A DNA stretch of 64,000 nucleotides, taken from the NCBI GenBank assembly GCA_001592805.2, contig CP051142.1:1054001-1118000 (forward strand). Reading direction: 5' to 3'. Below the pieces are notes generated by a model. It did not search any database and was not told the DNA's origin. It was given only the letters and a program-made list of their open reading frames with translations. This DNA comes from Peltaster fructicola. Lineage: Eukaryota > Ascomycota > Dothideomycetes. Made by a program: the position numbers and the translations under genes. Of the stretch, positions 48,175 to 58,029 are shown piece after piece (position 1 is the first letter of the stretch; every line of letters begins with the position of its first letter).

Positions 48175-48924
48175 GCTGTACGAAGAGAGCAGCATCTCGA
48201 CGAAGTGGACTCGGAACCTACTAACGACACGAACGTTGGAGCGGTGGTTGTGCGCCAGCAGGTGCCATCGAAGATATAGTCACGCAAGGGATAGCGTGGA
48301 GAGTGATATTGGCATCGACTTTTTGGTATGCGGCTCAAAAGGGCCTTGTGAAGCTATTATAGTCGGGTATGAGGCGAGCTGAAAGGCGCCAACGGTACCG
48401 CGTGCTTGCAGCATCTTCTTCAATGCTCACTGTTCACCTTCGATGGAGCGAGTCAGATTACGGGCAAGCAATGTGGTCCACCGGCATGGATACTGTCGGT
48501 CTGTGTAGGCATCGCAGTAACAGCTTGCGATAGCAAGTCAGACGACAGACTGATGCGACATCAGCAATCCGGAAGCTCGAGCAGAGATACTGGTGTAAGT
48601 CGGAACAAGAAGACTCGAGGTTTTCATCCGAGCGATGCGATAGCGAATGAGGCATCAGCATGGAATACGTGAAGTCGAGATGTAGATGTCTTTGTGATAC
48701 CATAGCACGTGTTGACGCTAGTAAGATTGAAGCGATCGTCATCATGCAGTGCAGCTCGCGCTGTAGCTCTATAATGGACAACCTGCTCAAGTGACACTAA
48801 AGCTGTCAGTTCACCACACAATGCATGCCTTCATGCTAAAAATGTATACCTAGAGTTGTCCTCCTCACCCGACAGCACTGAATTCCGCCTACAACCGGCC
48901 CAAGTCGCCAGACTCGACCCTATC
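48175..48924. other. Divergent promoter, GT25/DUF155
   Basis: About 750 bp between divergent starts. No gene or domain is seen. Confidence 0.5.
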
Positions 48925-50609
48925 ATGGCTCCCACCGAGTCCTCGCCGCTGCTTCCAACCAACACCCGCAACATAGCACCCAAACCACAGCGCACTGTCA
49001 CTTTCAATCCACAGATCTCGGCGTCGAGTCCGCCGCGAAGACGGCCTGCCTTTCCCGAGAATGCCTCGAGGACAAGCAGCCTGCTCTCGTCAGCAAGGGA
49101 GGGTACACAACCAGTGTTATCAGCATTGAACAGCAAGCTACGCAGACGGAATAGCTCGGGTGCACCGCTTCAACTACCTGCGCAGACAGCTGCGAGCAAG
49201 ATCGGTCCGCAGAGGACGACGGTGAGAACACAGAAGCTCAAGCTCCTGCCGAATCCTGAGCATGGTGACGAAGGTCCGGACGAGGAGAGTGGAAGAGATG
49301 TGTACAGCCAGTTCACACGTATCAAAGACCCCACAGCACGTCGAGACGCTGCTCGACTGGGCAAGGAAGACAGAGACAAACTGCCCAGAGTGACGGCGTA
49401 CTGTACAGCGAGCAGCTATAGCCTCGACGACCTACTCAGATACCTCAAGGGCAAATCTAAGACTCGAAGTGCACAGCCTAAGCTCTTCGACGAGTGTATC
49501 TACACTCCCTACGCCTACCAAAAGGAACCTAGCACTGCACGACGAAGATCGAGTGGAGCCGGAGATGCAGTTGATCCGGCAGTGGTGCTCTCACATCCCC
49601 AGCGACGCTTCTCTGATAGTGCCATTGAGGTCGACGAAAACACAGAACATCGTCGACAGGATCTGATCGACTTGCAGATCGAAAATGGCCAGGCGCCGGT
49701 GCCTGCGACACAATCTTCGAGCTCTCTCCTCGAAGATGCTCTAGACCTCGAAACGGACCACCACGCTATGGCGTCCCAAATCTCACGACCGCTCACTCCC
49801 GATTTTGACACCACCGTACACGTCCCGGAAGTGTTCTTGTTCGAGTACGGTGTTGTTGTGATCTGGGGCATGACGGAGAAGGAAGAACAGCGCTTTCTCA
49901 AGGAGATCTCGAAGTTCGAGCAGGAGAAGCTCGACAAGGATGACATACAAACTGAAGAGTTCAACTTCTACTACACACGAGAATATCAGGCACGCATTTA
50001 CAACGACTTCATCTCTTTGCGAGAGAAGAGGAATTACATGACGAAGCTGGCCATCAGTCATGCATTGGCACAGAGCACGAAGGTAGGGTATTGCGACCAC
50101 AATGTAACGAAATGCACTGACACTGTCTAGACCTCGCTGTACGAGGACTTGGTCGATGCTACCATCTCGACTACTCAGTCAATACCCTCCACTATTGCAC
50201 AAACAGGCAGGATCAATCTGACGCGACGAGAGATCAACATGCAAATCGGCGAACTCTTCATTCTTAGGATCAACATTCATCTGCAAGGTTCAGTTCTCGA
50301 TGCTCCTGAGTTGATGTGGGCAGAACCACAACTCGAACCTGTATACCAGGCAGTCCGAAGCTATCTTGAGATGGACCAGCGTGTTGGACTCCTCACCGAG
50401 CGACTTGATGTAATAGCAGACTTGCTACAGGTGCTGAAGGATCAGCTGACGCATACCCATGGTTTGTTGTGGATGAATGATTGTTTCGACAGGCTTGCTA
50501 ATCATCATCAGGTGAATATCTGGAATGGATTGTTATTGTACTCATTGCAGCCGAGATTCTCGTTGCTGCCATCAACATCATTGTCGACCTGTATGCTGGA
50601 GTAGACTAG
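48925..50609 (+). CDS. DUF155 protein, Rmd1/Rmd8/Sif family
   Basis: A 528-residue member of the RMND1/Rmd1 family (DUF155), related to yeast Rmd1 and Rmd8 and fission yeast Sad1-interacting factors. Exons are 48925-50082, 50131-50461 and 50512-50609. The domain reads RVTAYCTASSYSLDDLLRYL, then VPEVFLFEYGVVVIWGMTEKEE, YMTKLAISHALAQSTK/TSLYEDLVD, and LKDQLTHTHG/EYLEWIVIVL with the C-terminal membrane helix. The last exon (98 nt) is needed for the family ending; retaining the 50-bp intron gives an unrelated tail. The start at 48925 opens MAPTESSPLLP; the open frame reaches 48856. Cytosolic head with a membrane tail is typical. Confidence 0.9.
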
Positions 50610-54490: not shown

Positions 54491-55032
54491 GTAGTCCTCG
54501 TGATATCAGCACGAACGGGAAAGGCAAACAGGTTCGTCTTTCACAGTTCATGGTCATGCTCTCCCAAGATCATTGGTGGGGTCCAGTGGCTCATGCTAAT
54601 TAGCTGATATGACGTGCAGGCAGCTGTCTCACGAAAGCCTCAGGTCCATGTCGGTGGCGAATTCTACCGCGAAGGTGCTCTGCAACGCATTTCACAACCG
54701 GAAAGCAGAGCACATCAAGACTGGCAAGTGTGGTCCCCAGCACGCCAAACCACAGCGACCCTCTGTCAATACACCAATTCGATTACAAGTAATCCTGATG
54801 ATGGGTCTTGCGGCAAGGGCACACCTTTAAGCGATCGGGTATTGTCTTGTGACACGATCACGAGGGAGTCGAGCAGTGGCACCAGAGGTGAATGCAACGA
54901 GTGTCTCATTCATGCTTTATCTTCCTATCCCTCCGTCTCTCTCTCAGGAACACACCTTTCACAACATCCATCGTCCAACTGAAGCTCCAATGAGTGTGGT
55001 TGTCAGGCTAAAGAGCCCATGCTTGGAACGAT
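54491..55032. other. Gap, nothing recognised
   Basis: About 540 bp. A 122-codon plus ORF (54614-54982) has no domain; it reads as noise. Confidence 0.45.
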
Positions 55033-55155
55033 TTACTTCTATGATGGACAGTCAGGCGTTTGTGTCGATCACGACATGATCAGAAGACTTACGGAGCAGC
55101 TGCAGCTGCCCTGTGCGCAGTTGCAGGAGTCGTTGGAGCAGTCTGAGCAACCCAT
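55033..55155 (-). CDS. Metallothionein, 22 residues, two exons
   Basis: A tiny copper-type metallothionein. Exon 1 (55155-55093) codes 21 residues starting MGCSDCSNDSCNC and ending GSCSCS, with Cys at 3, 6, 11, 13, 18 and 20; exon 2 (55038-55033) is only AAG TAA, adding the final Lys. The 54-bp intron begins GTAAGT, has CCTGACTG before the acceptor and ends ATAG. The C-x-C pairs, Ser/Asn/Gly spacers, lack of aromatics and terminal Lys match the 22-26 residue fungal metallothioneins of Neurospora and Magnaporthe, which bind Cu(I) or Zn. The leader is C/A-rich and a TATAAAGG lies about 103 bp upstream, signs of strong inducible expression. Six cysteines versus seven in Neurospora. Confidence 0.8.
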
Positions 55156-55207
55156 TTTGATTGAGGTGGTTTGGTTTTGGTTGGTGGTAGTGTTTGGTTG
55201 TTGTTTG
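55156..55207 (-). promoter_or_regulatory. C/A-rich 5' leader of metallothionein
   Basis: On the minus strand this stretch is almost only C and A with scattered T (plus strand g/t-rich), ending directly in the ATG. Such leaders are common in highly expressed fungal genes. Confidence 0.6.
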
Positions 55208-55257
55208 GAGTATGCGGATGAAGAAAAGAATCACTGATGATGGACAGGAGATACATG

Positions 55258-55265
55258 CCTTTATA
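55258..55265 (-). promoter_or_regulatory. TATA box of metallothionein gene
   Basis: TATAAAGG on the minus strand, 103 bp before the ATG. Position and match fit an inducible TATA promoter. Confidence 0.55.
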
Positions 55266-56017: not shown

Positions 56018-58029
56018 TCATGCTCCAACAAGCTTTCGTATGCCGATCCACATCCTGTAGAAGCTGTCGCCGTACCCGAATTCGACGATGCCTGTAGCCA
56101 TATTAAACGCTCCTGCTTGCATGGGATAATCCAGCTTGCCAGGTATCGCGGTTTTAATGATGCTTGGGAAACGATCTGAGCAGACGCTCTTGACGTTGCA
56201 AATGCTGCGTAATCCCTCCTCTCCTGCGAACCGTCCATAGCCAGATCCTGCGACTCCGCCAAACGGGAGCTGTACAGCATAATACACCGCGAAGTCGTTG
56301 ATTGCGACCATACCAGATTTGATTTGTTTCGCGACATGTTGTAGACTATCGCGCGCCGCAGTCGTGTGCGTTGGGCCGAAGACGCTGCACCCAAGACCGT
56401 ACATGGTTCCATTGGTGATATCCACGGCTTGCTGCACGGTTTCGGCCTTCATGAACACGCAGATGGGGGCAAATAGTTCCTCTCGCGCGATTCGCATGTC
56501 TGGCGTGACGTTCACCAGGAGTGTCGGTGCAAAATAATGGCCCTGTGGATACTTGGGGTGTTTGACTTTCCTTCCTCCTACAATGAGAGACGCGCCTTGA
56601 GACACCGCTTCAGCGATCAATTTCTCCAAGCGGTCAAAGGAGGCTGAAGAGATCGAGGCTCCCACGTCGACTTGCCCTCCCTCCCGTACATCGAGATCGT
56701 TGCCAAGACGCAGAGCTTTGATGCGCGGTGTCAGCATAGTGACAAGTTTCTCATACATCCGAGGCATGGCGACGATGCGCTCAATGCCAATGCAATTTTG
56801 TCCTGCCGATTGGAATACACCCCTCATGATGATGCTTGCTATGCGATCGATTTCACCTTGACTAGGTAAAGTATTGCCATCGTGGTCCAGAATGACTGCT
56901 GCATCTTTCCCGCCAAGTTCCACGCACAGTGGGATGAGAGCGCGTGAGGCACTCTTCGCCACGGCATGTGCGACAGGCTTGCTCCCAATGAAGAGGAGAT
57001 GACTGATCTTTGGGTGCGACGTGAGGTGTTCTGCTGTCTCCGGCCAGCAGCTGACCACATGAACGATGTCTGCGTTGTGTCCAGTGACGACGAGTGCTTT
57101 GCGAACGAGGTCGCCAAAGTATTGTGACGACCATGCTGTCTGCTCGCTACCCTTGACTACGATGGCATTTCCGGTGAACAGAGCGCTGATGATCGGTCCT
57201 AGGATGTTGTGAAAAGGGTAGCTTTGCATGTTAGCACAAGTTGTAAGTGAGAGGCAGGCGCTGAGAATACTTCCAACTGACGCAGGCAGCTATGACACCA
57301 AGAGGTTCGTAGTGGACAACGTTCTTCTTGTAGAACATCAAGAAGTTGGTTGGTCGTCGTTCTGGTCGAAGTGCTGTTTCGCCGTGGTCGATAGTCCACT
57401 TCAGCTTCTCGACAGTAACGAGGATCTCTCCGAAGAGAGCATCGACACGTGTCTTGCCGCTATCGAGGCAAGCCACACGAACGATCTCATCTTGGTTGTC
57501 AAGGATGAACCTAAGATGCGTCAGCCAAGAGTTAGGAGTATCGGATGGACGAGGATACCGAAGAATCGTTTTGAGCACTCGTCTTCGTTGCCAGAATTGA
57601 GTCTCAGCCCATTCTTTCTGTGCGGTGCCAGCCTGGTCGATCAAACGATCGAGACCATCCGGTGTAACAGGTGTAATGCATTGGAGAAGCTCGCCAGTCG
57701 CAGGGCTGTAGCACTGGATGTCTGGAGAGCCAGGTACCTGGAGACAACAAGCGTCAGCGACAAGCTCATAGAGAGTGCCAGTCGGACGCCGTAAAAGCGA
57801 TGGGTTCACTGCGAGGAAATTGTGTTCTTATGCCGGGTCGCAAACCTCGTACCTTGATGGTTGGGTTGGTCAACACATGAACCTTCTCAGTCGTGGGCGC
57901 CGCGAGCGTGTAGGCGATGCCTTGTTCGCGAGCACTGTTCAATCTGCTTCGGAAGATCCATAGTACGATGCCGCCGAGTAGGAATGCAGGCAGCAGATGC
58001 TGTACGTTTACAATGATGTCTGTCGGCAT
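56018..58029 (-). CDS. MSC7: Msc7-like aldehyde dehydrogenase
   Basis: A 599-residue membrane-anchored aldehyde dehydrogenase like yeast Msc7. Exons are 58029-57853, 57737-57559, 57510-57271 and 57221-56018. Exon 1 has a membrane helix (HLLPAFLLGGIVLWIF); junctions give TNPTIK/VPGSPDIQCY, RVLKTILR/FILDNQDEIV and AACVSWN/YPFHNILGP. The catalytic Glu is in CVELGGKDAAVIL and Cys in FQSAGQNCIGIERIV; EELFAPICVF, PFGGVAGSGYGRF follow. The second intron (48 bp) has no stop and is a multiple of three, so an unspliced ORF carries a false 16-residue insert. Probably ER or lipid-droplet facing; the substrate is unknown. It shares a 255-bp promoter with the Zn2Cys6 gene. Confidence 0.93.

Follow-up and report, generated by a model that had tools for sequence, protein, structure and literature searches.

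A Putative Two-Exon Gene for a 22-Residue Metallothionein-like Peptide in the Genome of Peltaster fructicola

Results

Genomic Context of the Locus

The window, that is, the whole 64,000-nucleotide stretch of Peltaster fructicola DNA analysed here, contains on its minus strand, between an aldehyde dehydrogenase gene and a pair of small open reading frames (ORFs), the elements of a putative two-exon gene for a 22-residue peptide (hereafter, the 22-mer). Read in the 5' to 3' direction of that strand, the features are as follows:

58029-56018, minus strand: AMS68_005847, an Msc7-type aldehyde dehydrogenase of 599 residues, its three introns mapped exactly; upstream of the 22-mer gene
55258..55265, minus strand: TATA box TATAAAGG, starting 110 nt 5' of the ATG
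55156..55214, minus strand: G-free, A/C-rich 5' leader of 59 nt reaching up to the ATG, the longest among the ATGs of the window
55093..55155, minus strand: exon 1, ATG plus 20 codons, coding MGCSDCSNDSCNCAQGSCSCS
55039..55092, minus strand: 54-nt spliceosomal intron, GTAAGT...CTGAC...ATAG, with consensus splice signals
55033..55038, minus strand: exon 2, AAG TAA, that is, Lys-22 and the stop, as read from the sequence
54490-53999, minus strand: two small ORFs in succession, 74 and 67 aa long, downstream, with no Pfam match

The genome sequence comprises 18,987,130 bases in 5 contigs, and PMC7181583 describes a telomere-to-telomere assembly of 18.99 Mb and five chromosomes for this fungus, a dothideomycete, with a median intergenic distance of 463 bp. 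Approximately 1.5 kb without a supported ORF separate the stop of the aldehyde dehydrogenase (56018) from the start of the next small ORF (54490), and no ORF longer than 122 aa is wholly enclosed between these two positions. The description of the region as an ORF desert in the initial annotation is therefore fair, and a gap of this size, set against the 463-bp median, gives the appearance expected of a missed small gene.

The identity of the upstream neighbour is clear, ORF 56018-57229 (minus strand) matching AMS68_005847 of P. fructicola with 100% identity and 100% coverage. When this aldehyde dehydrogenase was used as a query, no match was obtained in viral contigs, while genome contigs yielded one bacterial locus at 25% identity. 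One protein with 66% identity to it is listed as coming from a plant, Quercus suber, and may derive from a contaminating fungus. On the downstream side, the 74- and 67-aa ORFs are possibly exons of one small gene adjoining the metallothionein locus, and a downstream ORF shows a weak short-chain dehydrogenase match below the Pfam cut-off. Farther away lie a Zn2Cys6 factor and a GH16 enzyme; no neighbour gene points to metal handling. Elsewhere in the window, ORF 48856-50130 carries the initial portion of a DUF155 (RMND1/Sif2) domain, and a likely 48-nt intron (50083-50130, plus strand) links it with the open frame that follows on that strand.

Peptide Product

Splicing of the two exons (minus strand, 55155-55033) gives MGCSDCSNDSCNCAQGSCSCSK, a product of 22 aa with 6 Cys arranged as C-x2-C-x4-C-x-C-x4-C-x-C, namely one C-x2-C and two C-x-C pairs. 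Besides its 6 Cys it contains 6 Ser, and F, W, Y, H, L, I, V and R are absent. All six Cys of exon 1 are encoded by TGC (6/6), a codon with a 64% share of the Cys codons across the window's 20 long ORFs. The 22-mer shows the general make-up of metallothioneins, being small, holding Cys at 27 mol% in C-x-C and C-x2-C pairs, and having zero aromatic residues. This Cys content falls within the 13-35% range stated for metallothioneins in PMC12508003, and was for that reason counted in favour of a metallothionein reading.

The layout that had been proposed earlier for the locus was recovered in full. The two exons, the six Cys, the C-x2-C first pair and the 6-nt last exon are all present in the sequence, as are the 54-bp intron with its branch site, the C/A-rich leader and the upstream TATAAAGG; the strand, previously unstated, is the minus one.

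Intron and Splice Sites

The CTGAC branch-like site of the 54-nt intron starts 17 nt before the intron end, and the ATAG acceptor followed by AAG forms a tandem NAGNAG acceptor, use of whose second member would remove the terminal Lys. Introns of the neighbouring gene, obtained by mapping the public AMS68_005847 protein to the window, provided a local reference: they measure 115, 48 and 49 nt, their CTRAC motifs begin at distances of 20, 14 and 13 nt from the intron end, and their acceptors are CAG, TAG and AAG, so that P. fructicola does not insist on CAG. With its 54 nt, its CTRAC at 17 nt and its TAG, the proposed intron lies inside the range of these three introns, which make up a small control. 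Its length is also close to the median intron of 50 bp given in PMC7181583. Extraction of introns over the window returned 11 candidates, reduced to 7 once neighbours were merged, three of the seven being 48-49 nt long; of the two references, the mapped AMS68_005847 introns are the firmer.

Full short-intron signals accompany 3 of the 16 GTAAGT sites in the window, the proposed intron included, and with the looser donor GTRNGT short-intron signals occur at 14 of 213 sites, which makes the intron weak evidence when taken by itself.

Promoter and Leader

The leader of exon 1 is an outlier among those of the 2441 ATGs of the window. Its G-free stretch extends over 59 nt, with a runner-up of 26 nt, and 54 of the 60 nt preceding the ATG are A or C, with a runner-up of 45. 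A scan of the window for ATGs whose 50-nt leader reaches 80% A+C, or reaches 74% with TATA[AT]A located 50-160 nt upstream, retrieved this ATG as its single match, with both alternatives present. TATAAAGG is the sole occurrence of TATA[AT]A followed by A, G or T in the 400 nt upstream of the ATG. A/C-rich leaders occur in well-expressed fungal genes, and by analogy the leader suggests that the putative gene may be strongly expressed. In the 900 nt upstream, the yeast Ace1-type element HTHNNGCTGD had no full match, and a partial TTGCTGA was detected at -296.

Expectation by Chance

Cys-rich frames are common in this DNA, with 19 open-frame stretches in the window containing six Cys in 24 residues versus 4.9 per shuffle (100 dinucleotide shuffles), and Cys-richness as a sole criterion was consequently rejected. 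A composition filter was applied instead, which asks for six Cys in 22 residues with the first Cys no more than 7 residues from the ATG, and which bars F, W, Y, H, L, I, V, M and R up to the sixth Cys. Exon 1 is its one match in the window, versus a total of one match in 400 dinucleotide-shuffled windows, and when two C-x-C pairs were additionally required the 400 shuffles gave none. With the residue bar dropped, the window contains 3 matches versus 0.5 per shuffle. Scaled to the genome, the composition filter in its looser form leads to an expectation of ~0.7 chance matches, so that composition alone is insufficient. Taken together, composition, leader and intron exceed chance and set the locus apart from the other Cys-rich frames.

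In a separate count over the genome, the codon pattern for C-x-C-x3-C-x-C was found 516 times, versus 287 for the pattern read backward; many TGC/TGT runs appear among the matches listed, and triplet repeats may inflate the figure of 516.

Searches for Relatives

Pfam returned no family at E <= 10 for the spliced or the unspliced product, a 22-mer being possibly too short to score. At the same threshold the 22-mer had no match in the PDB, in a set that included the Neurospora metallothionein 1t2y. A search of the 18.99 Mb genome for the gene returned its own locus alone, hence no paralogue, and the Neurospora metallothionein (MT) used as a query against the P. fructicola genome gave no match, a result which, obtained without a positive control, shows little. 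Rfam at its gathering scores yielded no match, and no tRNA was found.

A 40-aa product that begins with exon 1, discussed below as a rival, shared three five-residue words with none of the proteins of 22-70 aa in the protein database searched; this database includes P. fructicola and many Dothideomycetes aldehyde dehydrogenases, and may lack 22-residue proteins. The outcome suggests that exon 1 is absent from the listed proteins of 22-70 aa, and the gene is probably absent from the annotation. The literature search on metallothionein and Peltaster found no paper in the collection searched, and among the matches listed by further searches none pointed, judged by title, to a close relative's metallothionein sequence or to the intron position in a short ascomycete metallothionein.

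Discussion

Readings of the Locus

Considering (i) the composition of the peptide, (ii) the leader, (iii) the intron signals, and (iv) the introns of the neighbouring gene, a two-exon, 22-residue metallothionein-like gene, as put forward in the initial annotation, accounts for the locus far better than any other reading. We estimate at roughly four in five the probability that it is a real small gene of P. fructicola, metallothionein-like and spliced as proposed.

The alternatives concern either the fate of the transcript or the existence of the gene itself. The same exon 1 might be joined mainly to a 3' splice site further down, through an intron of 108 or 114 nt, yielding 40 or 38 residues and nine Cys. 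A second CTGAC followed by acceptors at 54985 (GGAG) and 54979 (TTCAG), which would add the tails LQLDDGCCERCVPERETEG or LDDGCCERCVPERETEG with three extra Cys, makes such an arrangement conceivable, and its length does not by itself exclude it since a 115-nt intron occurs in AMS68_005847. Nevertheless, the distance from CTRAC to the intron end would then be 22 or 28 nt, versus 13-20 nt in the three AMS68_005847 introns (a small control), while the nearer ATAG sits 17 nt behind a CTGAC of its own. The 40-aa product, moreover, found no relative in the protein database, and a tail ending in ERETEG is unlike short metallothioneins, among which we know of none with such an ending. Main use of the distal acceptors is accordingly considered improbable. 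A still smaller chance is given to an intron that is never removed, or that is kept under some conditions, in which case the frame, open for 7 further codons, would produce the 28-residue MGCSDCSNDSCNCAQGSCSCSVSLLIMS with the same six Cys. As the frame stays open past the donor, a Cys-rich peptide would result with or without splicing; against lack of splicing stand the consensus donor, the branch-like site and the acceptor, all of them present, together with the hydrophobic VSLLIM tail, hydrophobic tails being unusual in the metallothionein family.

That exon 1 could be no gene at all, but a Cys-rich frame arisen by chance between genes, agrees with the 19 Cys-rich frames of the window, with the short-intron signals at 14 of 213 GTRNGT sites, with the ~0.7 composition matches expected per genome, and with the failure to retrieve a homologue from the PDB, Pfam, its own genome, the Neurospora MT query or the protein database. 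It would nonetheless demand that a composition met once in 400 shuffles coincide with a unique leader and with a complete, correctly placed set of intron signals, and we assign this reading a very low probability.

Proposed Mechanism

For the preferred reading, a short metallothionein encoded by two exons, the following sequence of events can be proposed. The TATA promoter and the A/C-rich leader would drive production of an abundant short mRNA, from which the 54-nt intron would be spliced out to give a 22-residue cytosolic peptide that acquires a fold only upon metal binding. The six Cys thiolates of this peptide, arranged in one C-x2-C and two C-x-C pairs, would enclose a single small Cu(I)-thiolate cluster, which might be Cu4S6, and the cluster peptide might thereby buffer surplus copper, possibly also Zn or Cd and oxidants. 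What the DNA displays directly is the sequence with its open frame, a composition beyond chance, the leader and the splice signals. From these we infer the transcription, splicing and translation of the gene, its induction by copper, and the metal binding and metal preference of its product. Judged from the sequence, the most likely function of the peptide would be that of a short cytosolic copper metallothionein. The cytosolic location would follow from the lack of a hydrophobic stretch and hence of a signal peptide. Two matches to the copper-fist domain above the Pfam cut-off in the genome indicate that a copper-sensing regulator is available, although, with no full match to the yeast element upstream, copper induction is an expectation only.

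A more elaborate scheme, which we regard as highly unlikely, would make the gene a splicing-tuned metal buffer: selection within the NAGNAG acceptor would give a peptide with or without its Lys, the acceptors at 54985 and 54979 would give a nine-Cys form of different metal capacity, and the C-x2-C pair would shift the Cu(I) preference towards Zn/Cd.

The two-exon metallothionein reading implies that a fungal genome finished from telomere to telomere can harbour a very short metallothionein that is probably unannotated, and that a tiny gene can be recognised by the combination of leader, splice signals and composition. If expressed, it might serve as a metal buffer for a fruit-exposed fungus of the apple surface, one possibly missing from its gene list. 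It would also add, if expressed, to the six-Cys short fungal metallothioneins, and offer a simple system for addressing the minimum of thiolates per working cluster.

Comparison with Known Metallothioneins

The copper metallothionein of Neurospora crassa (UniProt P02807), of family 8 (fungal 1) of Binz and Kagi, resembles the 22-mer in being short, starting with MG, ending in Lys and having no aromatic residues, and the S-C-N-C and C-S-C-S blocks of both peptides align. They differ in that the Neurospora MT has 26 residues and 7 Cys, versus 22 and 6 for the 22-mer; in the first Cys pair, which is C-x-C in the former and C-x2-C in the latter; in the gap between the last two C-x-C pairs, of x3 and x4, respectively; and in a seventh Cys past the last C-x-C, present in Neurospora and missing in the 22-mer, which ends in C-S-C-S-K. 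The formal Cys pattern of family 8, the Neurospora-type arrangement of seven Cys with C-x-C as first pair, is thus not that of the 22-mer, which was for this reason kept out of the family. The Neurospora sequence compared is that of Table 1 of PMC4755600, and also that of PDB 1t2y, there without the first Met.

The alignment score against the Neurospora MT was reached in 23 of 5000 permutations with everything permuted, in 130 of 5000 with the Cys positions kept, and in 333 of 5000 when M1 and K22 were held constant along with the Cys, the likeness being weak in this last case. The likeness of the two sequences is thus suggestive and does not prove common descent.

Other fungal metallothioneins are of comparable size. 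Mmt1 of Magnaporthe grisea carries six Cys and a terminal Lys, as does the 22-mer, with a Cys spacing that probably differs from that of the P. fructicola peptide. Podospora anserina PaMT1, with seven Cys, and the MT of Agaricus bisporus are likewise very short, like the 22-mer. Mmt1 also equals the 22-mer in length, with 22 residues according to PMC12508003, a precedent by which short length in itself is not new; PMC9036806 locates Mmt1 at the walls of cells in infection structures and ascribes to it a part in pathogenicity. In the sources cited, the PaMt1 gene is described as copper-inducible (PMC2654708), the Agaricus bisporus MT as having seven Cys (PMC4755600), versus six in the 22-mer, and metallothioneins of such size in Neurospora and Agaricus as copper-thioneins (PMC4755600). 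Aspergillus nidulans CrdA and Candida albicans Crd2 are putative metallothioneins with C-x-C pairs in the account of PMC5447758; CrdA, with 109 residues and 16 Cys, is unlike the 22-mer, with which it has the C-x-C pairs in common. Deletion of crdA in Aspergillus nidulans produced no metal sensitivity according to PMC5447758, so a detoxification role need not follow from a metallothionein-like sequence.

The suggestion of the initial annotation that the peptide is a distinct metal-binding variant stands insofar as the peptide does depart from the Neurospora protein in its C-x2-C first pair and in lacking a seventh Cys, while a difference in metal preference has no support as yet. The locus thus opens no new metallothionein class, and its product is a modest variant of the short fungal metallothioneins.
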